From assembly GCF_009498275.1 (NCBI RefSeq), contig NZ_CP045643.1, positions 5,766,001 through 5,830,000 of the forward strand: a stretch of DNA of 64,000 bases. The letters are read 5' to 3'. Positions 1,705-14,734 of this stretch are shown here, piece after piece. The first letter of the stretch is position 1, and every line of letters begins with the position of its first letter. A model generated the notes under the pieces. The model was not told where the DNA came from, did no database searches, and saw only the letters and a program-made list of their open reading frames with translations. Origin of the DNA: Streptomyces fagopyri (GTDB lineage: Bacteria > Actinomycetota > Actinomycetes > Streptomycetales > Streptomycetaceae). The translations under genes and the position numbers were made by a program.

Positions 1705-2838
1705 ATGACGGGGACTGACCGGGGCTACACGTCGATCGAGATCTGCGCCGGCGCTGGCGGGCAGGCGATCGGACTGCACATGGCCGGTTTCAGACACCTT
1801 GCCCTCATCGAAATCGACAAGTACGCGGCGGCCACGCTGCGCGAGAACATCGAGGTGCACCCGAAGTGGGACTGGGAGCGCGCCAACTGCGATGTCCTCT
1901 GCCAGGACGTGACGGAGTTCGACCCCGCGCGCGACTTGGTCAAGAGTGCCGGTCTCTACAAGCGGGGTGAGGTTGACCTGCTTGCCGGCGGTGTGCCGTG
2001 CCCGCCCTTCTCCCACGCTGGCAAGCAGCTCGGTGAGGACGACGAGCGTGATCTCTTCCCGCGCATCCTGGAGCTGGCCGAACTCATCCGCCCTCGCGCA
2101 GTGATGATCGAGAACGTCCGTGGCCTCATGGACCCCAAGTTCTACGACTACAGGTCGCGGATCCAGGCCAGTCTTGAGGACATGGAACCTGACGAGGACG
2201 GGCTTCCTGGCTACGAGGTCGTGGCGTGGAGGGTCTACGAAGCGGAGCAGTTCGGTGTCCCGCAGCTCCGGCCGCGCTCCATCCTCGTCGCCTTCCGGAA
2301 AGACGTGCTCAAGGATCTGAAGTACGAAGCCCCGACACCCGGTACCGAGACGGCAACAGTCCTGGGCAAGCTTGCGGAGACGATGAAGGCGCGCGTCGAC
2401 GTGTTTGAGGGCGGTCCTCGGGAAGCTGAGGCCAATGAAGTGCTCAAGAAATGGAAGAATGCTGCCGCCAGCGGGACCGTCGCTCCCACGCTCGTAGGCG
2501 GCTCCAAGAAGCATGGAGGCGCCGACCTCGGTCCCAGCCGTGCCAAGAAGGCATGGGAAAAGCTGGGCGTCTCGGGCCTGGGCGTGGCCAATGCGCCGGT
2601 GGACGGTAAGCCGACCGGCACTGAGGATCGCGATCTGTTCCGTCCCGGGGGGCCCATGCTCACGGTTCGCCAGGCGGCGATCATCCAGGGGTTCCCGATG
2701 TACTGGGAATTCACGGGAGGCAAGACGGCCCAGTACCGACAGGTCGGCAACGCGTTTCCGCCGCCCGTAGCCGAGGCCATCGGTAAATCGATCATGGAAG
2801 TGCTCAAGGCGGACCGCAATCGCGCCGCCAGCGAGTGA
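1705..2838 (+). CDS. DNA cytosine-5 methyltransferase
   Basis: A 377-residue C5-cytosine DNA methyltransferase. Motif I (AdoMet) is EICAGAGGQAIG near residue 10. The catalytic loop reads GGVPCPPFSHAGKQLG with the PC nucleophile, motif VI is IENVRGLM, motif VIII is QLRPRSI, and motif X is RQVGNAFPPPVAEAIG at the C-terminus, so all blocks are present and in order. The target-recognition domain lies between about residues 205 and 300. A strong GAGGAGG site precedes the ATG. It is the only DNA methyltransferase in the island, so it is inferred to protect the host from the two GCCGGC-type nucleases at 8.3-10.0 kb although it is 5.5 kb away. A C5 enzyme also fits the Vsr gene, since Vsr repairs the T:G mismatches that 5-methylcytosine deamination creates. 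Confidence 0.93.
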   Translation: MTGTDRGYTSIEICAGAGGQAIGLHMAGFRHLALIEIDKYAAATLRENIEVHPKWDWERANCDVLCQDVTEFDPARDLVKSAGLYKRGEVDLLAGGVPCPPFSHAGKQLGEDDERDLFPRILELAELIRPRAVMIENVRGLMDPKFYDYRSRIQASLEDMEPDEDGLPGYEVVAWRVYEAEQFGVPQLRPRSILVAFRKDVLKDLKYEAPTPGTETATVLGKLAETMKARVDVFEGGPREAEANEVLKKWKNAAASGTVAPTLVGGSKKHGGADLGPSRAKKAWEKLGVSGLGVANAPVDGKPTGTEDRDLFRPGGPMLTVRQAAIIQGFPMYWEFTGGKTAQYRQVGNAFPPPVAEAIGKSIMEVLKADRNRAASE

Positions 2839-2892: not shown

Positions 2893-4722
2893 TCAGGGCA
2901 GTCGGCTGTTCAAGTGTGCGAGTAGGGCATGGATGTCATCGGCATCCATGCCCAAGCCCGTGGTCTCCTCCTCTTGGAGGTCGCCTAGCTGGCGCACCGC
3001 CGGGTCATCGAGCACGCTGCCCAGGAAGTGCAGCTTCTTTTCGAGGCGCACGGCCACGATTTCGTCGATCGTGCCCCGGGCCGCCAGCACGGTCACGCGC
3101 GTCTCGGTACCTGGAGGCAGCCCCAGCCGGTGAATGCGGTCAAGGCTCTGGAGGAAGCGGCCAGCCATGAAGTCGCGGTCCACGTACACGGCGTCATGGC
3201 AGACCTGGTGAAGGCTGATCCCCTCACCCAGGGTCGCCGGGTTGGAGATCAGGACCATGCACGAGGGGTCCTCACGGAAGCGGCTGAGCTCAGCTTCCCG
3301 GTCCGGGCCCGAGGTGGCGCCGTAAATGGAAGCCGGGGCATGGGGTGCCAGCAGCTCCTCCAGGGTTTTCTGGCTTCGGATGAACCCGGTCCACACCAGT
3401 GTCTTACGTCCGTCTTGTGCGTTCCTCGCGACGATGCGAACAGTCTCCGCGTACTTCGGTGAGAGTTCATGCCGAGGAAGCCGCCGCAGCAGCGTCTGCA
3501 AAGAGTCGCTGTCAGGGACATCAATCGCTGGCAGCTGAAAGGCGAGTGGATCGTAGGGGTTTTCACTCGGGGCCAGCAGCGAGGGGCTGATCGCGGCCAT
3601 CAGCAGGCGCATCGCCGCCTTGCCGAGAGAGGCCAGATCACCCCGCCGAGCGGACGGGTCCCCCTTGAGAGCGCTGTACAGCTCGCGGTGCAGCGGAGGA
3701 AGGTCGACATACCGGACCACGGGTTCGAAGGGCGGGAGGCCCAGTTCCTTCTTTGTCGTACGGGTGAACAGCGGGCGCAGAGCCCGGCTCGCGTAAGCGA
3801 GGTCACCACCGTTGACCGCCTCGACCACGAGCTGTTTCCCGTGTCCCGGCCACACGAACGAGAGCAGGTTTTCCAGATCCCGGGCGCTGTTGGGGGCTGG
3901 CGTCCCGGTGAGGATGAGACGCCGCCGGGCCAGTGGCCCGAGCGAGAGACAGGCAGAGCCGTAAGTGCCGCGCGCTCCGAGTTTCATGCGGTGCGCCTCG
4001 TCAAGCACGAACATGGCCGGAGCCGTGCGCAGCCACTCCGACAGTCGGCTGACAGAGCCGGACAGCCGCTCATAGTTGACCAGGACGACATCAGCTTCGG
4101 GATCCAGAGATCCGTTGTCCATTACGGAAGTTCGCAGCGGTTCCTTGAAACAGACGTCCCCTTCGAAGCGCCAGGCCTCATACGCCGCCTTGGGGCAGAT
4201 GACGAGCAGACGCCGGACCTCGCCCCGCTCCCGCAGTGCGCTGAACACGGCGAGAGTCGTGCGGGTCTTGCCGGCTCCAGGAACGCTGAAGTTCGCGCCA
4301 TGGCCCAGGGACAGCAGCTCCCCGATATCCCGGAGCTGGAATGACGTCAGGTCTGCCTGCCAGCCCGCGCCAAGCAGCGTGTGGAGATCTTCCGACGCGA
4401 GCGGCGCTGACTGGGACTCGGCAGACGGTGAGCCAAGCCGGTACTGCACGGTCTCAGAGTCATCAAGAACGCCGGTGACCAGGCTGGCCAGCTCGGGTTC
4501 CCACTCAACGTCAGTGTGGGGCCAGCCCGCCAGTTCGCCGATGACGGACAGGAAGCTGTCCATGTCGGTCTCCGACGTCAGCGGGCCCAGCTGGCCGCCC
4601 GGAGTCACCCGCGTGGCCAGCATGCCGAAATCTCCTTCCAGGCCTGGCCTGGCCCGGAGTACAGCCCGTGTCCTTGTGACGTCGAACGTGATGCGCAGAG
4701 ACGGGCTGTCAGGGCGTGTCAT
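2893..4722 (-). CDS. SNF2-like superfamily II helicase/ATPase
   Basis: 609 residues with a full set of helicase motifs: Walker A PGAGKT (148-153), motif Ia region LLVICPKAAYEAW, DEAH box VLDEAHRMK (DEAH at 241-244), motif III LTGTPAPN (271-278), and in the second RecA lobe ISNPATLGEGISLHQ and QSLDRIHRLG. It is SNF2/RapA-like in style, so it probably translocates on or remodels duplex DNA rather than unwinding it. The first 120 residues are family-specific and unassigned. The ATG overlaps the stop of the upstream ParB-like gene in an ATGA arrangement, so the two are translationally coupled. The neighbourhood (HNH-like, ParB-like, methyltransferase) points to restriction or phage defence. Confidence 0.88.
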   Translation of the reverse strand: MTRPDSPSLRITFDVTRTRAVLRARPGLEGDFGMLATRVTPGGQLGPLTSETDMDSFLSVIGELAGWPHTDVEWEPELASLVTGVLDDSETVQYRLGSPSAESQSAPLASEDLHTLLGAGWQADLTSFQLRDIGELLSLGHGANFSVPGAGKTRTTLAVFSALRERGEVRRLLVICPKAAYEAWRFEGDVCFKEPLRTSVMDNGSLDPEADVVLVNYERLSGSVSRLSEWLRTAPAMFVLDEAHRMKLGARGTYGSACLSLGPLARRRLILTGTPAPNSARDLENLLSFVWPGHGKQLVVEAVNGGDLAYASRALRPLFTRTTKKELGLPPFEPVVRYVDLPPLHRELYSALKGDPSARRGDLASLGKAAMRLLMAAISPSLLAPSENPYDPLAFQLPAIDVPDSDSLQTLLRRLPRHELSPKYAETVRIVARNAQDGRKTLVWTGFIRSQKTLEELLAPHAPASIYGATSGPDREAELSRFREDPSCMVLISNPATLGEGISLHQVCHDAVYVDRDFMAGRFLQSLDRIHRLGLPPGTETRVTVLAARGTIDEIVAVRLEKKLHFLGSVLDDPAVRQLGDLQEEETTGLGMDADDIHALLAHLNSRLP

Positions 4723-6134
4723 TGCTGGCCTGCCACGGCCTCACGCAGCCAGGTCAGGCCCTCCCCCGGAAGCTGGATGCTCCTTGAAGCCTCGGCTGAC
4801 ACCTTCGTCAGTGCTTGGCGGAGCGTGATCAGAGCGTCGTCGAAAGCGCCCTCGTCCAGGCTGTTGTTTCCGCGGGCCATCACCAGGTCGGTCACACACT
4901 GCTGAAGATCGTCGACTGCCGCGGTGATCCGGTCGGGAGCGGCAAGGCGCTTCCTCTGCTTGCGGCTCTCGTCAACAGCGGCCCGGACCGACTCGCCGAA
5001 CGCAGTCCCCAAAACGCTCACCGACTGGTTGGCGTCAGTGATCTCCTCGGGCGTCGCGGTGGCCGCGGACTTCTGCGTAGCCTTGGCTCTGAGCAGCGTG
5101 TCCGTGAGGGCGCGCGCCTGCGCCGTTTCAGAACTCGGGGCTGGAACGGAACGGTTGAGGCCCGGGATGGAAACCGCCTTCGGGGGCTCAGGTTCCACGG
5201 CTCGAGATCGCTCGGGCAGGCGATGCTCCAGAAACTTCTCGCGAAAATCGGTATGGATGGCCCGAATGTCAGTCTTGGCGATGTCGAGAACGATCGCGGC
5301 CAGACGGTACTCAAGAAGCGTGTTGGCCTTCTCCTTGTTCCTGGCCTTCTCCTTCACGTAGACGCGGTACAGCTCGGCGAAGCGCTCCTGGGCGTCCTCG
5401 AAGTCCATCAGGCGCAGTTTGTTGCGTCCGTGCTCGCTACGCTTCTCCAGGTCACGCAACTGTCCGAGGACCCAGGTATCACGTTCCAGCGCCGGTGTCG
5501 TGGTGTGGAACAGCTTGGAGATTGCGGCGAGGGGAAGCCCCAGCTGGATCTGCTCCTCAACGGCCATGAGACGGTTGATGTAGGAGTACTCGCGCCGACG
5601 GTCGGGCCTGAGCTGCAGCGACAGTTCGACTGTGAGGATGTCGTCCCAGGTGCAGCTGGCGGGGAGTACACCTACGCGGATGGTCCGGACGCCCAGCTTC
5701 TTAAGAGCGGCCCGGCGGGTGTTTCCGTTGACGAGAACGCCTTCACGAGAGATGAGTCCCGGCTCGTTCTGCCGGTGTTCGCGCAGACTCTCCATCAGCT
5801 TGTCGAAATCCGGGTCGCGCTGGTGCGGGTCAGACGGCTTCGCCATCAGCAGATCGTGCAGATAGCTCTGGCCGGCGTCGGACCATGCGTCCTTCGCCAA
5901 TTCCTTTTCCCGCAAGGGGTCGTGGGCGCGCTGAGCGCTGACTCTGTGTGTAGCGGGGTTGTAGTAGAGCCGGTCCACGTCCATGTCGATGACCTCGACG
6001 TGGATCGGCCGGCCCCGGAACTCAACACGGAGTGTCTCAGGCACGGCGTCGCCCGTGCGCGCGTCCTGAAGCCGCTGCTCGACCAGGGCGCGGTTCTCCT
6101 CCGCAGTCGGCGGGAAGCCGAAGTCCGTCGGCAT
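4719..6134 (-). CDS. ParB-like domain protein of a defence cluster
   Basis: 471 residues. Residues 45-150 look like a ParB/Sulfiredoxin N-terminal domain: a segment like those that name priority residues to query (VIDMDVDRLYYNPATHR), then GVLVNGNTRRAALKKLG, which matches the ParB box II pattern GxxRRxA. Residues 170-215 contain an HTH-like helix pair (RLMAVEEQIQLGLPLAAISKLFHTT). The rest is helical, with a charged segment around 290-310 and a long C-terminal region of no recognised family. There is no ParA partner and no parS-like repeat array nearby, so a chromosome-segregation role is unlikely. The island context suggests a DNA-clamp, CTPase or nuclease subunit. AGAGG precedes the ATG. It is coupled to the helicase downstream. 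Confidence 0.65.
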   Translation of the reverse strand: MPTDFGFPPTAEENRALVEQRLQDARTGDAVPETLRVEFRGRPIHVEVIDMDVDRLYYNPATHRVSAQRAHDPLREKELAKDAWSDAGQSYLHDLLMAKPSDPHQRDPDFDKLMESLREHRQNEPGLISREGVLVNGNTRRAALKKLGVRTIRVGVLPASCTWDDILTVELSLQLRPDRRREYSYINRLMAVEEQIQLGLPLAAISKLFHTTTPALERDTWVLGQLRDLEKRSEHGRNKLRLMDFEDAQERFAELYRVYVKEKARNKEKANTLLEYRLAAIVLDIAKTDIRAIHTDFREKFLEHRLPERSRAVEPEPPKAVSIPGLNRSVPAPSSETAQARALTDTLLRAKATQKSAATATPEEITDANQSVSVLGTAFGESVRAAVDESRKQRKRLAAPDRITAAVDDLQQCVTDLVMARGNNSLDEGAFDDALITLRQALTKVSAEASRSIQLPGEGLTWLREAVAGQQ

Positions 6135-6211
6135 GGGTACCTCTCGTAACTGGATTGAGTTCTGGGGACTGATGGAGGCGTGCCAATGGTCGGCCCGCCC
6201 CTATCGGGCGT

Positions 6212-6889
6212 TTACTTCAGACCGTCGCGGAAGAAGTCGCGTGCATCGGCCGGCAGGGCGCGGTACTTGGCCCAGAGGTCTTCGACAGCGCTGAAGGTCC
6301 GGGCGTCCTGCTTGATCCAGGTCTTCAGGATGTCGAGTTCGAGGGAGGGCAGCGATACAGCCTCGGAGAGCAACGCCGGCACGTCGTACGTGGAACCGAT
6401 CCCGCCGACACGGCAGCGGTTGCACTCGACGACGTACTGCTGAGCCTTCGTGCCGTTCGGCAGCCGGACTTCACGCTTGGCCACGTCGAGCTGGGCTGTG
6501 ATTTCCGAGTCGGTGTATTTGTCTCCGGGGGTGGCACCACACGAGCTGCACTTGTGGCCATAGGCGGCCAGCAGCTCCCGGCGCTGGTTCACCGTGATCG
6601 CGGTCTTCGGACGAGTGCCGCGCCCCGGCTCCCAGACGGCTTCGCCGCGCTGGACGTAACGCTGTTCGTTGGCGTCGAGGTCGATGTCCTCGCGCTTGGT
6701 GTCGATCTTCCACCCGAAGTCGCGGAGGTCCCGCATGCGACGGTCGATCTGTGCCACGTCCGGAAAGGCGTCGCGGAGCTCCGTCTTGGTGAAGACGTTC
6801 CCCTCGCCGACCACCTGGACGAGCCAGAGAGCGGCGCGCTTCATCGTGCCCAGTTTGCTGTCCTGCCATGAAGGCAAGGCCGTGCTCAT
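6212..6889 (-). CDS. Winged-helix / zinc-ribbon (HNH-like) restriction-associated protein
   Basis: 225 residues. The N-terminal 90 residues (MKRAALWLVQVVGEGNVFTK..., MRDLRDFGWKID) resemble the winged-helix head found on many HNH restriction proteins. The middle carries HKCSSCG and, about 45 residues later, CNRCR, a treble-clef zinc site. The usual DHxxP catalytic segment between the two CxxC pairs is not evident, so it may be a nuclease with a degenerate core or only a DNA-binding zinc protein. ATG 6889 has GAGG five bases upstream and was preferred to the in-frame ATG at 6967. It leads a minus-strand set followed 77 bp later by the ParB-like gene and the helicase. It is divergent from the HTH gene at 7108. 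Confidence 0.6.
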   Translation of the reverse strand: MSTALPSWQDSKLGTMKRAALWLVQVVGEGNVFTKTELRDAFPDVAQIDRRMRDLRDFGWKIDTKREDIDLDANEQRYVQRGEAVWEPGRGTRPKTAITVNQRRELLAAYGHKCSSCGATPGDKYTDSEITAQLDVAKREVRLPNGTKAQQYVVECNRCRVGGIGSTYDVPALLSEAVSLPSLELDILKTWIKQDARTFSAVEDLWAKYRALPADARDFFRDGLK

Positions 6890-7107
6890 CTCCACCTCGC
6901 AGCGCTGAGCGGGCCAGCCCGACTGCATGTCAGGACAGTTGGCGCCTGACAATGGCCCGCTGAGCACAACGGAACATCAAGTCCGCCTGAAAGAGAAGTG
7001 GCTGAGTGTCCAGATGAGTATCCGGACACAGTTGACAGGTCGATTGGGGGTGGTTGGAGGCACACTGTCGTCAAAAGCTGTGGTGGGGTGGGACAGAAGG
7101 AGCTGGC

Positions 7108-7797
7108 GTGCCGCGATCGGGTCGCTTCAGGGAACTGGATGCCGGAATACCGGAGGAGAGAAAGGCCCTGGCCAGGGTCTTGCGCACCTTGATGAAGGTG
7201 GTCGGCCTGTCGCTGAGGCAGACGCATGCCGAGCTGACTCGGCGCGACTTCGGCTGCGACACCTCGGCGAGTGCACTCTCCGACTTGCTCAACGCGCGCA
7301 TCCACAAGCCGAAGCGCGAGGTGATCCGGGCGCTCTACGAACTGGCGGAGACGGCCGCGCAGACGAGCGACGCCTCCATGCCGGTCACCTGGGAAGAGCT
7401 TGAGGACCTCTGGGCGAAGGCATGCGAACCGCCGGCGGCTTTGTGCATGAGCTGCCAGCGCCCCGTGTTGCCGGTCCCCTCAGCGCAAGGGGACCGGCAA
7501 CACGGGAAGGGGCAGTGGCCCACCGCGCTGACCCTGTTGGACATGAAGCAGAACAGAAGGGCCGAGGATGTTGCCGGCATCCTGCGGCACGTCGGTGTGG
7601 TGGGCGAGCCGACGGAGGTGGCTCACGCGGTGGCCGCGTGCAGGGCATGCGGGCTGGGTTCTGAGGCGGACGTGATTCTCCGGTACGCGCAGACCGGACG
7701 TGATGGGCGCCAGCTTGCGGAGATTGCTTATGAGTTCATGAGGATCGAAGACAACGCCATGGCCCAGCGCGCACTCGGGATGTTCCTGGCTATGTAG
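7108..7797 (+). CDS. Helix-turn-helix regulator with intragenic inverted repeat
   Basis: 229 residues starting at GTG 7108, chosen because AAGGAG lies at 7097-7102. Residues 15-65 form an XRE-like HTH (RTLMKVVGLSLRQTHAELTRR...SASALSDLLNARIHKPKREVI). A CMSCQRPV segment follows, then a helical C-terminal part in the style of TPR/bacterial transcriptional activation domains. It sits between the two minus-strand defence operons, overlaps the end of vsr by 8 bp convergently, and is divergent from the gene at 6889. It is a plausible controller of the restriction genes, as C proteins are elsewhere. The perfect inverted repeat at 7462-7506 lies inside the gene and is unusual for coding DNA. Confidence 0.7.
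   Translation: MPRSGRFRELDAGIPEERKALARVLRTLMKVVGLSLRQTHAELTRRDFGCDTSASALSDLLNARIHKPKREVIRALYELAETAAQTSDASMPVTWEELEDLWAKACEPPAALCMSCQRPVLPVPSAQGDRQHGKGQWPTALTLLDMKQNRRAEDVAGILRHVGVVGEPTEVAHAVAACRACGLGSEADVILRYAQTGRDGRQLAEIAYEFMRIEDNAMAQRALGMFLAM
7462..7506. repeat. Perfect 19-bp inverted repeat, 7-nt loop, inside the HTH gene
   Basis: Arms 7462-7480 and 7488-7506 are exact reverse complements and include CCGGT/ACCGG. RNA from either strand would form a very stable hairpin. On the minus strand it lies just beyond the vsr stop, so it could terminate the restriction operon. Confidence 0.9.
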
Positions 7798-8303: not shown

Positions 8304-9062
8304 TTACCAGGTGGACAGAGTTGGTGGCAGTGTTCCGTAAGGAAGTAGGCGGCCTTGTTCGATGATCTCGTCGAGGTCGTCCTTCTGTTTGCTGCTGCCG
8401 ACAGCGGCAACCGCGGCCTTCAGGGCGTCGAGGGCTACGTGATAAATGGCATCGGCTTCCCCAGTCCCCCGTGCGATCGAGGCGATCCGGCTGGGCATCG
8501 GTTCCGCGGTCACCACCACCAGGTGCGGCAGCCGTCCGCGCCGGTGCCTGATCATTTGAAGGAACTCGTGACGCACGTTTTGCACGCGATCTGACCTGAT
8601 TGTCCATTTGCAGGATACTGCAGCATGCAGATGGCGGCGGGACGCAGCATCGGCCGCGGGGCTCGTCACGCCTATGGTCACATCAGGTTTGATGAGGTAA
8701 TCGCGGCCCAGGTCGACACGAAGGGTGGCGTTCTTGCGGACCGCTTCGGCGACTCTGTGCAAATGCTCATACTGTGCGAAGGCGGCCACTTTCTGCTTGT
8801 GATCCACGTGCCATGAGCGCTCCGGGTCCAGGAGGGGCTGCGCCGTTTTCAGGTGATCGCAAACGGCGTGCTCCAGTGCGGGGCCAAGACTCTCGGGGGT
8901 ATCGGGAAGCACCGCACCGGGCTCGACCCCCAACGCCTCAAGCATGTGTCCTGCGAGCAACTTTGATGCATTGCTGTCGGAGTCAGCGGTGTTCGGGACG
9001 AGTTTCCCGGTCCTCTCCAGCTTCTTCCAGCCAAGGAGGCGGGTCGCGAAGGGCGCGTGCAT
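8304..9062 (-). CDS. NgoMIV-family type II restriction endonuclease
   Basis: 252 residues. The active-site signature of the NgoMIV/Cfr10I/Bse634I family is present: IKPDVTIG (Asp127), SCKWTIRSDR (Ser150-Cys151-Lys152, then Arg156, Asp158, Arg159) and Glu166. The spacing Lys-X13-Glu is the one known for NgoMIV. The R-x-D-R stretch after the catalytic lysine is the family element that reads the CCGG core. NgoMIV cuts G^CCGGC, so GCCGGC is the expected site, but the flanking base pair cannot be proved from sequence. The Asp-to-Lys spacing is shorter than in NgoMIV as I remember it. AGGA precedes the ATG, two bases after the NaeI-type gene stop. Fourth gene of the operon. Confidence 0.88.
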   Translation of the reverse strand: MHAPFATRLLGWKKLERTGKLVPNTADSDSNASKLLAGHMLEALGVEPGAVLPDTPESLGPALEHAVCDHLKTAQPLLDPERSWHVDHKQKVAAFAQYEHLHRVAEAVRKNATLRVDLGRDYLIKPDVTIGVTSPAADAASRRHLHAAVSCKWTIRSDRVQNVRHEFLQMIRHRRGRLPHLVVVTAEPMPSRIASIARGTGEADAIYHVALDALKAAVAAVGSSKQKDDLDEIIEQGRLLPYGTLPPTLSTW

Positions 9063-9064
9063 CG

Positions 9065-10045
9065 TCAGTCCTGTCTGGTGTGTGAAGGCAAGGGCGGCGC
9101 GGATTCAACGGGGTTGTCTGACTGGGCGAGAACCCATTGCTTGCCGTCCAGGACGGCCACGGGGGCATCCTGGTGATGGGCCCGCGCGCTCACCACTCGG
9201 GCGCTGACGAACTCGCCTTCCTCGGGGAGAGGGAGCCCCAGCTGGGCGGCGATCTCGCGATGACTGGCGTAGTCACCCATGATGAGGATGCCCTCTGGCC
9301 TCAGCGCCGACCGGCTGCCGCCATTGCCGCGGACTCGCTTCATGTAGTCCTTCTGCTGGGCCACGGTGCGCACCACGTTGCGGCCGATTCGGCGCTTCTG
9401 GGCGCGCCGGAAGAGTTCGTTCAAGCGGCGTTGGCCTGAGTCCGACGCGAACACGGCGGCCCGGTCCGCGGTGTCCATGTGGAGGAGTACGTTCTCGGGA
9501 AGGGCTTCATCCCGCCACAACCACCGGATCTTGTCGCGGTGTTCAGCCTTGATCGTGAGCTTGAGGTCACGGTTGTTCCCCGTGTTCAGCCACTCGTGAC
9601 GTATCCGGACAAGCCCGATGCTCCAGAGGGACTTGTAGTCATCCGCCCAAGCCAGCAGGCAGAGGTGGTCCATCGCCTCGGGAGGAATCATCCAGCCGCC
9701 GAACTGCTGGGAGTACTTGCAGTCCACGTCGACGTCGGCGATCTGGTAGTCCATGGCGTCGCCGTCGGCGAACCTGAACTCACGCTGGAGATTGATCTCC
9801 ACGAGAGTTCCCGCGTGGGTCTTCTCGGTCTTGAAGAGCGCCTTCCAGTCGTAGCGTCCGGTCACCTCGCCGTTGAGCAGCTGGTCGATGGTGTCGCGGA
9901 GGACCCTGGCAAACCGGCGGCCCGTGGGGTCCTGCGCCATGATGCGGTCGTAGACCCGGTCCAGTTCAGGGTCCACCCCGGCCGCCAAGTTCGGTAGAGC
10001 GACCGAAACGGCGGTCTTGATGTCGGCCTCTTCGAAAGGAAGCAT
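9065..10045 (-). CDS. NaeI-family type II restriction endonuclease
   Basis: 326 residues; NaeI is 317. The N-terminal nuclease domain has Glu83 (TLVEINLQREF), Asp99, Asp108 and Lys110 (DVDVDCKYS), reproducing the NaeI D86-X8-D95-X-K97 arrangement with a constant offset of 13. TIDQLLNG (52-59) aligns with the ligase-like segment of NaeI, and Leu56 sits at the position of NaeI Leu43, the residue whose change to Lys is known to give topoisomerase/recombinase activity. So this protein should be a true nuclease. The C-terminal half corresponds to the second DNA-binding (Topo) domain. NaeI cuts GCC^GGC and needs two sites. GGGGAG precedes the ATG. Third gene of the operon, 47 bp after the Z1 gene. 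Confidence 0.9.
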   Translation of the reverse strand: MLPFEEADIKTAVSVALPNLAAGVDPELDRVYDRIMAQDPTGRRFARVLRDTIDQLLNGEVTGRYDWKALFKTEKTHAGTLVEINLQREFRFADGDAMDYQIADVDVDCKYSQQFGGWMIPPEAMDHLCLLAWADDYKSLWSIGLVRIRHEWLNTGNNRDLKLTIKAEHRDKIRWLWRDEALPENVLLHMDTADRAAVFASDSGQRRLNELFRRAQKRRIGRNVVRTVAQQKDYMKRVRGNGGSRSALRPEGILIMGDYASHREIAAQLGLPLPEEGEFVSARVVSARAHHQDAPVAVLDGKQWVLAQSDNPVESAPPLPSHTRQD

Positions 10046-10092: not shown

Positions 10093-13000
10093 TTAGTCCG
10101 CGTTGACGATAACCGCGTCTGGACGAGCGGAGTCCTTGGTTTGGAAGCGCACAAGCAGTTTCTTCGTGTCGATGGCTGCCTTCGGTGGAATCACGGTAAA
10201 CGCCATGATGACGCGGTCAGTTGCCGCAGCGCCCGTCGTGGCTACGGCTTTGACCTCATCGTCCTGGGCGGCCTCTACGACGGGATACAGGAGCACTACG
10301 CCCCGCGTTGCTCCTAGTGCGGGGAAACTGCTGCCCGTGGAGGCCGAGTCAGGCAGTTCGATCAGCTGCTGGGCGAACAGACGATGTTCCAGGCCCGAGA
10401 TACGGCCGAAGGACTGCTTTCCGGACTGGCGGCTTCGGCGGGACAGGGAGAACGGTCCCTGTCCCAGCACGGTCGCCTCGATCCGGTTGCGTTGTGTTCG
10501 CTGCGGAGCGATGACCAGCCAGTCGTCAACCTTGGCCAGGCGGCCGTCAAGCTGGGACAAGTAGGTCAGGTGCGGGGTGAGAACGTTTCCGTCCTCCCAC
10601 TCCAGCGAGCTCAGAACGGAAAGGAGCTGAGCGTGCGGGACGACCGTGGTTGCCGCCTGGAAGCTGCGGGGCAGGGGCGAAGTCTCGTCCGGCCGCAGAA
10701 CGCAGGTCGCTGAGGTACCGCTGAGTGCCGCGAGGACGGACTTCCAGCGCTCGGTGTTGCGCGAGGTCAGTACAGCGTCCTGCGGATAAGCGGCCGGCTC
10801 GATCGGCTTGCCCGGCGACCTCACCTCCACCAGCTCCGCGTTGAACATCTTGTTCCGGGCCGACGGCTTCACCCACGGCAGGTGCTGGGCCACCAGGGGC
10901 GGGATCTGGGCGGGGGTGACCTGGGGGCGGCCGTCCACCAGCGGGGCGTAGCGGGCCAGTTCGGCGCGGAACAGCTCCTCGTCCCGGCAGATCGCCTCGA
11001 AGGCCTCGTACAGGTCGACCGTCTTCGCGTTACGCCCCTTGCCGAGCTGCTCCTCGCGGCCGATGTACAACCGCACCAGGTCCCGGTAGCCGGGGCGGAA
11101 GCCGAACCAGCGGCCCATCTGCATCAGGGTGTCGGCCTGCTGTGTCGTGCGGCGGTAGTACGTGATGGTCAGGCCCTCGACCGTGAACCCGCGGGACAGC
11201 TTGGTGCCGCCGACCAGGATCTTCCAGACGTTCGGGGTACGGTCGAAGTCCAGGTCGGGCTGGGCGTAGTCGCGCTCGCTCTCGCCGTTGACGACGATGA
11301 CGGGGCTGCCGCCCCGATTGATCAGTTGGCAGGATCCCGAGATGAAGGGCTTGAGGTCCGCGTACGTCTCGGGTGTGGGCAGGGAACTGTCCGCGTAGGT
11401 GTGGAAGTCCTTGTCGAAGAGGGACGCCAGGCGGGTGTGGCCCGCCGGGCCCGTGTAGGCGGCGTTGCGCCACATCGTCCGGATGCGCTCGGCGAGCACG
11501 GCGTGCTCGGCCATGCGGACGGATTCGTGCACGAGCATCGTGTGGTGGCGGAACGGGCCGGAGGGGACGCTGTGCTTTTCGCGGTAGAGCTTCAGAGCGC
11601 CCGTGAGGACGAAGGCGTCCATGGCCTCCTGGAGACGGTCGCCCGTGGACTCCGCCTCCATGAGAGGGGTGCCCGTGAAGTCGCAGATGTCTCGGACGTG
11701 CTTCTTCTCGGCTTCGCCTTCACCGCCGTCGATCGTGTCCAGGTCATGGAAGTCCTGAACGCCCATGTATGCGGCGGGCCGCGGCAGGGAGATCAGGAAG
11801 TCGCGCGGGAACAGGTCCTCCTCGTCGCCCGGGTCGATGAACACGTTGGCGAACGGGGTCGCGGTGTAGCCGACGTACTGGGCGCGGGGAAGCAGCTTGA
11901 GCAGGGCGCTGATCTGGCCGTTGATCGCCGTGCGGGTGACCTTGCCGTCCTCCCACTTCTTGGGGTCCGTGGTGTTCACGGAGGCCTGGTCCGACTCGTC
12001 GTCGATGATCAGGGCCGGGATCTCGCTGAGGATCGGACCCATCTTCTTGAGGTCCTTGACCAGCTTCTCCAGCACCGACTTGTTCTTCTTCACGACCATG
12101 ATCCGTGCGCGGGCCGCGTGCAGGTTCGCCGGGTCGTACAGGGGGCGGGTGCGGTCGGGCTTCTCGAACTCCAGCGCGCTGATCCCGCGTTCCAGGGACA
12201 TGTAGTCACGGTCGCGGGAGGTGAGACGCTCGATGTCGAAGGCGCCGAGGTCGGAGGGGCGGGCGCCGAAGGAGACGAACTTGGCGGGCCAGTCCTCGTC
12301 GTCCTGGTAGTCGATGCCGACGAGGGCGTCCGGGTCGTTCGGGTCTGCGGCGCCGAGGATGTTCTCCCGGCCGATCAGTTCCATGTCGAGCCGGCGCTGG
12401 GTCTGGCCGCGCAGCAGGTTCAGCGTGCCGCCGAGCACGATGACCAGCCGGTATCCGGCGTCGATGGCCTTGGCCGTGACGCCGGTGAAGTTGGCGGTCT
12501 TGCCGGACTGCACGTAGCCGACGACCAGGCCGCGCGCGCCGTACGGGTCGTCACGGGTGGGCTCGGCCAGCCGCTCCACGACCGCGCGGGCGGCCTCGTC
12601 CAGACCGGAGACGGCCGCGTCGCCCCAGCCCTTGCGGCGCAGCAGACGCTCGTATGACGTCCAGTAGAAGGCGCGGTTCGCCGCCTGTTCCCGGGTGTAC
12701 CAGGGCTGGAACTCACGGCTGATGGTGACGGGACCAGGCTCGGTGTGGACGGGGACGGCAGTATCGAACGCCTTGCGGAGATCGGTGTCCAGCGCGAGAT
12801 TGTCGTAGACCTCGGCGCGCCGCTCGGGGGTGCGTGCCGTCGTGGCCGACCACGAGGGGGACTGCTCGAAATCCCAGGCGGTGAGCTTGCGGCGCCAGAC
12901 GGCGAGCAGGTCGTCCCCAGGGGCCGCGGCCAGGATGCGCTCGTGGAATCCGGCCACGTCCGTGTCCGCCGGCTCTTCGCTGTCGGCGAGCGCGAAGGCG

Positions 13001-13101
13001 AGCTTGGCGAAGTGCTTGGGGCCGCGTCGGCTCATCGCGTCGAGCACCTCGCCGTGAAGGTCGGTGAGGCGGTCGGGAGCGGGCGTGTTCTCGGCGGTCA
13101 C
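10093..13101 (-). CDS. Z1-domain superfamily II ATPase/helicase
   Basis: About 1002 residues from GTG 13101, preceded by AGAGAGG; a TTG at 13164 would add 21 residues and overlap the upstream gene. Walker A GYVQSGKT (about 195-202) and Walker B ALIIDDESDQ (DDESD about 367-371) are followed by VGYTATPFANVF. The Z1 domain proper runs through ILVGGTKLSRGFTVEGL and DTLMQMGRWFGFRPGY, where the Arg finger-like motif resembles helicase motif VI. Z1 proteins occur in restriction-like operons with MutL/MORC-type ATPases (Iyer, Abhiman and Aravind 2008, recalled from memory). A role as ATP-driven DNA translocase or nuclease-loading factor is inference. Confidence 0.9.
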   Translation of the reverse strand: MTAENTPAPDRLTDLHGEVLDAMSRRGPKHFAKLAFALADSEEPADTDVAGFHERILAAAPGDDLLAVWRRKLTAWDFEQSPSWSATTARTPERRAEVYDNLALDTDLRKAFDTAVPVHTEPGPVTISREFQPWYTREQAANRAFYWTSYERLLRRKGWGDAAVSGLDEAARAVVERLAEPTRDDPYGARGLVVGYVQSGKTANFTGVTAKAIDAGYRLVIVLGGTLNLLRGQTQRRLDMELIGRENILGAADPNDPDALVGIDYQDDEDWPAKFVSFGARPSDLGAFDIERLTSRDRDYMSLERGISALEFEKPDRTRPLYDPANLHAARARIMVVKKNKSVLEKLVKDLKKMGPILSEIPALIIDDESDQASVNTTDPKKWEDGKVTRTAINGQISALLKLLPRAQYVGYTATPFANVFIDPGDEEDLFPRDFLISLPRPAAYMGVQDFHDLDTIDGGEGEAEKKHVRDICDFTGTPLMEAESTGDRLQEAMDAFVLTGALKLYREKHSVPSGPFRHHTMLVHESVRMAEHAVLAERIRTMWRNAAYTGPAGHTRLASLFDKDFHTYADSSLPTPETYADLKPFISGSCQLINRGGSPVIVVNGESERDYAQPDLDFDRTPNVWKILVGGTKLSRGFTVEGLTITYYRRTTQQADTLMQMGRWFGFRPGYRDLVRLYIGREEQLGKGRNAKTVDLYEAFEAICRDEELFRAELARYAPLVDGRPQVTPAQIPPLVAQHLPWVKPSARNKMFNAELVEVRSPGKPIEPAAYPQDAVLTSRNTERWKSVLAALSGTSATCVLRPDETSPLPRSFQAATTVVPHAQLLSVLSSLEWEDGNVLTPHLTYLSQLDGRLAKVDDWLVIAPQRTQRNRIEATVLGQGPFSLSRRSRQSGKQSFGRISGLEHRLFAQQLIELPDSASTGSSFPALGATRGVVLLYPVVEAAQDDEVKAVATTGAAATDRVIMAFTVIPPKAAIDTKKLLVRFQTKDSARPDAVIVNAD

Positions 13102-13153
13102 GTTGGTCGGGTGGCCTCTCTGGTGTGCGGGAAGTCGCGGGGTGAGCGGTGGA

Positions 13154-14734
13154 CTAGTCGTCAACGCGGGCGAGTTCGGCTCGTACGGCGGTGACGAGAA
13201 CGCTGTTCCACAGGGCGACCTTGTCGGTCTGGTTGGCCCAGACCCGCTCCTTCTGGAAGATCTCGTTGAGCATCAGGTAGAGAAGGCTCTTGAGGACCGG
13301 TGCGTCGTTGGAGCCTCCTCGCCGGCCGCCGTTGAAGGCGTGCCGGTAGTCGCTGTTGAGGACGACGAGACGCTCCTTGTGGTCGATCGTGAAGAGGAGG
13401 TCGGCGGAGTCGACGCCGGCCGGCACGTCGAGTTGGGCCCAGACGAACGTGATGGGGTCGTCGCCCTCCAGCTGGGGCAGTTCGTCGCGCAGCGTCCGCT
13501 TCAGCTTGGGATCGATTCCCTTGCCGGGCGGAATGACGGCGGTGCGCTTGACCTCGGTACGCCGCTTGGCGGCTTCGCGGTAGGCCGTCTCCGCGTCCCG
13601 GACGTAGTCGGTGAACGCGTGGCCGGTGTCGGCGTTCGCCGCCTTCTCCAGACCGCGGGCGAACGCCGGGGTGACCTGGACACCGTCCTTCTTGACGGTC
13701 AGGGAGAACACGTCGTTGGGCTCGGACGGCAGGTCCAGGGCGATCCTGGCGAGGGCGAGGTGGCCCTCCGGACTGCGGGTGTCGTTCCAGCCGCCTGCCT
13801 GGACAAGCCGGTTGTTGCGGTAGAGGTAGAAGCCCTGGCGTTCGGCGAGCGGGCCGATCCCGCGGTACGCGACCAGCGGAGACTTGGGCGGCCATATGTG
13901 CGCCGTGAACGAGACGTCTCCGAGGCCCTCCACAGGGGCGGTGTACGTACGGGGATAGCCGGGGCGGCCGGGGACCCGGTACCCGAACGGGTCGATGGGC
14001 TCGACTCCCCGGTGGTCCAGCTCCTCCCGGGTGTGGACGTCCTCGACGACGATGTCTATGTGGAAGCCGTCGCGTGCGAGGAAGCGGTGGAGGTGGAGGC
14101 CGAGGTGGGTCTCGAGCCGGTCGATCGCGTCGTTGAGATAGCGGTCGGTCTGACCCGCGGTGATGGTCTCGAACGGGCGGACCTGGTCCCAGCGGACGAT
14201 CGTGCCGTGCCAGCCGATGATCCCGTCATAGCGGTCGACCAGGTCCTGGCAGTACGTCGCGTCGACGATGTCGCAGGTGAAGTCGGCCTGCGCACGGGCG
14301 GTGAGCCAGCGACGGCCGGTCGACGGGCTGCGCTTGGTCCGGCTGATCACGGTGAGCGCGTCGGCGTGCGAGAGGGAGGCGGCCTTCAGTCCCGCGCCGA
14401 AGTGTCCGAGGGCACCGGCGGCGTAGTTCTCGCGCCCTCCGACGGTCATCGCCGTGTCCAGGCCGGCCTCGTCCATGCCGTGGCCGTCGTCGATGACGAG
14501 CAGACCGACGAGGCGGTCGCGGCCACCGCGCTCGCCCGTGTCCCGCAGGAAGCTCACGACGACGTCGTGGGCACCCGCGTCGATCGAGTTGTCGATCAGG
14601 TCGGCGACGGCCGCCTCGAAGCCGTAGCCCTGGTGCGCGAGGGATTCGAACGACCGGGCTGCGGGCGGGAGCCGCTTGCTCCCGCTGGTGGGTACGTCGA
14701 ACTGCCAGTCCGAGGAAGGCTGGTAGGGCGGCAT
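13154..14734 (-). CDS. MutL/MORC-like GHKL ATPase of restriction system
   Basis: 526 residues, first gene of the minus-strand operon. The GHKL ATP site is complete: N box AVADLIDNSIDAGA (45-54), G1 IDDGHGMDEA (82-87) and G2 GALGHFGAGLKAASLS (107-120). The second half contains an S5-like fold region (KDGVQVTPAFARGLEKAA) as in MutL and MORC proteins. There is no C-terminal MutL endonuclease motif. Members of this family are known in bacterial restriction-modification neighbourhoods with Z1 proteins, C5 methyltransferases and Vsr. ATP-dependent dimer closure around DNA is the expected mechanism. GAGGA lies seven bases before ATG 14734. The Z1 gene follows after about 50 bp. Confidence 0.88.
   Translation of the reverse strand: MPPYQPSSDWQFDVPTSGSKRLPPAARSFESLAHQGYGFEAAVADLIDNSIDAGAHDVVVSFLRDTGERGGRDRLVGLLVIDDGHGMDEAGLDTAMTVGGRENYAAGALGHFGAGLKAASLSHADALTVISRTKRSPSTGRRWLTARAQADFTCDIVDATYCQDLVDRYDGIIGWHGTIVRWDQVRPFETITAGQTDRYLNDAIDRLETHLGLHLHRFLARDGFHIDIVVEDVHTREELDHRGVEPIDPFGYRVPGRPGYPRTYTAPVEGLGDVSFTAHIWPPKSPLVAYRGIGPLAERQGFYLYRNNRLVQAGGWNDTRSPEGHLALARIALDLPSEPNDVFSLTVKKDGVQVTPAFARGLEKAANADTGHAFTDYVRDAETAYREAAKRRTEVKRTAVIPPGKGIDPKLKRTLRDELPQLEGDDPITFVWAQLDVPAGVDSADLLFTIDHKERLVVLNSDYRHAFNGGRRGGSNDAPVLKSLLYLMLNEIFQKERVWANQTDKVALWNSVLVTAVRAELARVDD

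Follow-up and report, generated by a model that had tools for sequence, protein, structure and literature searches.

The question raised by this locus is why two unrelated restriction endonucleases should adjoin each other in one operon. In a 64,000-nucleotide stretch of the Streptomyces fagopyri genome (GCF_009498275.1, NZ_CP045643.1, 5,766,001-5,830,000, forward strand; the whole stretch is termed the window, and coordinates are positions within it), a NaeI-family gene stands beside an NgoMIV-family gene. NaeI is a type IIE enzyme cutting GCC^GGC, and NgoMIV (PDB 1fiu) is a type IIF enzyme cutting G^CCGGC. The best-supported reading of the sequence comparisons, with a probability of roughly 0.55, is that the two act in parallel on a single site, with one methyltransferase for both. 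The two unrelated enzymes would probably recognise an identical hexamer and depend on a shared protective methylase, and parallel cutting of this site would most likely make virus escape harder.

The side-by-side placement of two unrelated endonucleases, described in the initial annotation, was confirmed, both proteins scoring above the profile cut-offs. The NaeI-family protein matched PF09126 with 413.3 bits (cut-off 25; profile positions 2-287 of 288) and aligned to NaeI (PDB 1ev7) over residues 4-314 of 317, with L43 kept together with the catalytic E70, D86, D95 and K97 (window E83, D99, D108 and K110, numbered from the 1ev7 alignment). It differs from the founder NaeI in being paired with a second endonuclease. 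The NgoMIV-family protein matched PF09015 with 181.2 bits (cut-off 23.2) in two stretches, and contained the PD...K...E active site and the R-(D/E)R core-recognition motif of its family (D127, K152, E166; R156-S-D-R159). It differs from NgoMIV in adjoining NaeI, in lacking Q63 and in having 22 fewer residues in the spacer that runs from D140 to K187 next to the active site. This spacer had 46-47 residues in founder-type NgoMIV, 19-25 in short paired NgoMIV (window 24), 24-27 in a divergent variant B, and 18-30 in unpaired NgoMIV, plus two at 46 and 50.

The NgoMIV residues R191/S192/D193/R194, D34 and R227, which read the core and the outer bases, were kept in the window enzyme (PMC4652773, PMC6326814). 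Within this set D34 and R227 specify the outer pair (PMC6326814), and Q63, a minor-groove contact to that pair, was replaced by E57. Across 22 paired and 60 unpaired short NgoMIV sequences (variant B kept apart; seven duplicate loci and fragments of <170 residues dropped), R227, the R191-S-D-R194 motif and the catalytic residues D140, K187 and E201 were kept without exception, and E70 and D34 in 21/22 paired and 58/60 unpaired sequences, the remainder being gaps save one substitution.

Similar pairs were met again in other soil bacteria. A search for co-occurrence of the two domains, proposed in the initial annotation, found NaeI in 76 and NgoMIV in 18 of 394 genomes of the family, with both in 15 of the 18 (hypergeometric p = 2.8e-9, kinship ignored); in 13 genomes the two genes lay no more than 1265 bases apart. 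At the best-matching 80 of 248 NgoMIV relatives, the loci kept, NaeI was present at 21, in 9 genera. Distinct pair loci numbered 31 after removal of duplicates, some being truncated by contig ends. The NgoMIV tree required at least 8 changes of the pair label and the NaeI tree at least 17 (5 and 9 of them forced by starred branches). The starred clade in which the window fell held 12 NgoMIV genes, every one paired. On plasmids NaeI occurred in 3 records and NgoMIV in 16, with no record common to both among the matches listed (15 of the 16 NgoMIV records); no NaeI was found in phage records.

A methyltransferase was present in 31/31 distinct pair loci. On a tree of 133 methyltransferases (42 beside NaeI alone, 56 beside short NgoMIV alone, 4 beside founder-type NgoMIV alone and 31 beside both enzymes), from which duplicates, sequences of <250 residues and loci lacking a methyltransferase were left out, enzyme labels changed at least 31 times (3 if sorted; shuffled mean 62), and the presence of NaeI and of NgoMIV each changed at least 18 times. 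The window methyltransferase was 86% identical to that of L165, a NaeI-only locus, and the methyltransferase of L080, beside a founder-type NgoMIV, nested with the methyltransferases of two paired loci, L067 and L135. Some rows had long branches, and neighbour labels clustered, as expected from kinship. The simplest reading is that the same methylation would hold off both enzymes, which would therefore read the same or nested sites.

Several findings weigh against parallel cutting of one site. Short NgoMIV had not kept Q63 and may therefore read the outer base pair in another way. NgoMIV was gone from 2 of the 4 loci nearest the window (L164, L165) and frameshifted in L151 (the same locus as L064). 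Outside Streptomyces, short NgoMIV stood without NaeI in 53 of 62 kept loci, and overall NaeI was missing from 59/80; no second genome with both enzymes was found in a 396-genome phylum sample. Founder-type NgoMIV was paired with NaeI in 0/4 loci, which was not significant (Fisher p = 0.31). The D140-K187 loop may take part in the tetramer contacts of NgoMIV, and a single-site dimer for the short form is a guess. Among nine Streptomyces phages, 6 had no loss of GCCGGC, and two of the others, Lika and Sujidade, were also without CCCGGG, CCGCGG, GGCGCC and GGGCCC.

The loss of Q63 bears on the claim of a common target. Short NgoMIV might read a CCGG-core site other than GCCGGC, with a broad methyltransferase or a second one protecting it. 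Variant B, which lacks R227 and has an RTDR motif, would fit, as would a second methyltransferase in 4 of the 31 distinct pair loci (L069, L070, L154, L163; the best-scoring one alone was put on the tree) and other methyltransferases elsewhere in the window's genome. Such a difference in specificity is quite improbable, given a single methyltransferase in 27/31 distinct pair loci and the retention of D34, S192 and R227 in the window type. The common target proposed in the initial annotation was supported indirectly, by the one methyltransferase lineage found with either enzyme or both and by the retained recognition residues, Q63 being the exception among these.

The losses of NgoMIV were traced in the nearest loci. 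L164 had the window's gene order, with flanking DNA 83-85% identical on both sides and the NgoMIV gene gone; two collinear fragments of 35 and 33 bases there matched the L084 NgoMIV gene at 94% identity (E = 2e-11 and 3e-10), and the reversed control of this search gave no match. These fossils indicate that L164 came to have NaeI alone by losing its NgoMIV gene. At this locus NaeI evidently needs no NgoMIV, which speaks against an obligate two-enzyme machine. No significant NgoMIV remnant was found in L165 (E = 0.5). A profile search for fossils in unpaired loci (59 NaeI-only, N and F loci) gave no match, and was too insensitive, since the fossil of L164 escaped it. With tblastn, 2 of 117 NaeI-adjoining segments fell below E = 0.001: that of L164, with its fossil, and that of L179, where the match was to another gene, still intact. 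The best reversed control was at E = 0.083. A fixed, obligate pair was rejected on the solo loci, the phylum sample and the L164 fossils; what stood of the fixation claimed at the outset was recurrence in many lineages.

The pair may instead be transitional: methyltransferase-Vsr cassettes would swap endonucleases, and two-enzyme loci would be snapshots of replacement, the second enzyme bringing no lasting benefit. This is consistent with the many gains and losses on the trees, with the L164 fossils and the L151 frameshift, and with L067 and L135, whose methyltransferases (88% identical) and Vsr proteins (93%) were close but whose NgoMIV (50%) and NaeI (64%) were not. It is nevertheless rather unlikely, because the 12 NgoMIV genes of the window's clade and all 7 of variant B were paired, and because both genes are under purifying selection, as judged from ratios of non-synonymous to synonymous substitution rates (dN/dS). 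In four comparisons of close relatives (L088-L089 and the three pairings of the window, L084 and L085), dN/dS was 0.08-0.15 for NgoMIV and 0.13-0.18 for NaeI; for L067-L135 it was 0.28 and 0.18, with synonymous sites near saturation, and L086-L087 gave no computable value for either gene. The four NaeI catalytic positions were intact in 30/30 other distinct paired loci compared with 51-57/59 unpaired loci, by residue. By the frames in which the profiles matched, NaeI was unbroken in 31/31 and NgoMIV in 30/31 distinct pair loci.

True cooperation between the enzymes is quite improbable. The two-base spacing and a Shine-Dalgarno-like AGGA just 5' of the NgoMIV start suggest coupled expression, and NaeI-type enzymes are two-site enzymes, needing two sites (PMC4081073). 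Each enzyme, however, was often the only one of the two at a locus whose methyltransferase belonged to this same lineage, and the division into sensor and cutter offered in the initial annotation was not borne out; its other suggestion, double insurance against phage resistance, fitted better.

Site-shedding phages, which the idea of complementary cutters needs, do exist, in a small sample and with a loss that is not specific. In the nine phage stretches counted (five of them the first 30 kilobases), GCCGGC seen versus expected was 2/47 in phiC31, 0/30 in Lika and 0/16 in Sujidade, the last two being of one genus. The phages with no loss were phiBT1 (35/36), VWB (113/119), R4 (97/99), phiHau3 (107/89), SV1 (78/79) and phiSASD1 (60/45); phiBT1, the other Lomovskayavirus sampled besides phiC31, kept the expected number in its first 30 kilobases. 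Avoidance of GCCGGC by the host gave no clear signal, neither in the window (95 seen, 123 expected, some other palindromes being equally low) nor in relatives' loci (GCCGGC alone counted; ratio 0.85 without and 0.78 with the pair).

The partner of NaeI was not always a short NgoMIV. Variant B (loci L069-L075, n = 7, same family) combined a NaeI relative with a relative of NgoMIV (28-31% identity) that had Q or H for E201, D for N197 and A or S for E70; all 7 variant B genes found were paired. The second acidic residue has apparently shifted to the N197 position, where that of BsaWI is thought to sit (PMC4652773). At L179, a 328-residue protein (L179:8768-9754, -) with no match in Pfam, PADLOC or PDB filled the slot between NaeI and Vsr. 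It had 118 relatives, with D200, S215, K217, R221-S-D-R224 and E227 invariant in 21 aligned rows, and its family matched the NgoMIV profile (hhalign probability 95.9, E = 5e-9); it represents an undescribed nuclease family remotely related to NgoMIV. As a common partner of NaeI it was rejected: it occurred in just 1/394 family genomes, the three other matches, the window's included, being NgoMIV genes. The slot can thus be refilled, though commonness does not follow.

It is tentatively possible that NaeI-type two-site enzymes have repeatedly been joined by an RSDR-type CCGG endonuclease (the short NgoMIV, variant B or, in one case or more, the third family), giving layered restriction under one methyltransferase. 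The partner would cut the same protected site with a different geometry and different site-number needs; phages would shed sites until two-site enzymes stalled, and the partner would close this route of escape.

Features of the locus
Feature	Position	Strand	Evidence
C5 cytosine methyltransferase, presumed shared protector	1705..2838	+	PF00145 E 6.6e-54
SNF2-type helicase, accessory module	2893..4722	-	PF00176 E 4.3e-17
ParB-like protein, accessory module	4719..6134	-	label by reading sequence; no Pfam family at E 0.001
HNH-like protein, accessory module	6212..6967	-	label by reading sequence; no Pfam family at E 0.001
HTH protein, probable accessory-module regulator	7054..7797	+	PF13560 E 0.00059, under curated cut-off
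Vsr mismatch endonuclease, 167 residues	7790..8293	-	PF03852 E 1.9e-19
Short-form NgoMIV-family endonuclease	8304..9062	-	D127...SCK152, R156-S-D-R159, E166; D27, R192 kept
NaeI-family type IIE-like restriction endonuclease	9065..10045	-	PF09126 E 6.5e-124; 1ev7 E 1.9e-88; catalytic E83, D99, D108, K110
MzaC-like protein	10093..13164	-	PF10593 E 3e-53; MzaC E 5.4e-63
MORC/MutL-type GHKL ATPase, PADLOC MzaB-like, operon's first gene	13154..14734	-	PF13589 E 2e-20; MzaB E 3.6e-30

Vsr was present in 30/31 distinct pair loci; in the window its ATG lies 10 bases past the NgoMIV stop, and the open reading frame list holds a longer version with a TTG start at 8410. The GHKL ATPase occurred in 10/31 of these loci and is therefore optional; the MzaC-like gene likewise occurred in 10/31. 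Between methyltransferase and Vsr stood the accessory module (2893-7797). A SNF2 relative was found in 33/161 loci with NaeI or NgoMIV cassettes, duplicates included, and the ParB-like and HNH-like genes travelled together with it. The top PADLOC match of the methyltransferase was DruM2, the Druantia cytosine methylase (E = 4.1e-108), followed by MTase_II; the window methyltransferase matched 1018 phage records, none at >60% identity. Elsewhere, two Mycobacterium loci (L145:9103-10768, L155:1882-3677) held two adjacent NgoMIV copies, one of them split over two matches. Similar proteins of about 265 residues lay between Vsr and NaeI at L166:8694-9491 (+) and L168:8935-9735 (+), with sub-threshold Pfam matches, and an HNH endonuclease gene (L181:8833-9798, +; PF01844 E = 1.5e-09) directly adjoined NaeI.

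In its MzaB-like and MzaC-like proteins the window resembles Mza; it differs in also having Vsr, a methyltransferase and a pair of type II enzymes. The mzaABCDE gene set carries AIPR and sigma-factor hints (PMC9523054). Membership was rejected, since a scan of 15 window proteins at E = 0.001 found no Mza protein beyond these two. The window has the gene set by which MORC-type restriction-modification operons are defined, a GHKL ATPase, a superfamily II helicase, a nuclease and a methyltransferase with Vsr, as in the MORC/paraMORC operons of Iyer, Abhiman and Aravind (2008; PMC2292703); the text of that paper does not name NaeI or NgoMIV, but its Fig. 2 labels a type II endonuclease and may include such a pair. 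MboI and Sau3AI are isoschizomers from two lineages (alpha and beta) of the PD-D/ExK superfamily, and so are alike in sharing a target; unlike the present enzymes, they are treated in the passage of PMC548270 individually rather than as neighbours that share a methyltransferase. No paper on a NaeI-NgoMIV pair was found among those that the literature searches listed. Because nature has put two unrelated enzymes together with a single methyltransferase, and some relatives have kept the pair while others have lost it, the locus offers a direct test of whether a second cutter with different site needs halts phages that have few sites.
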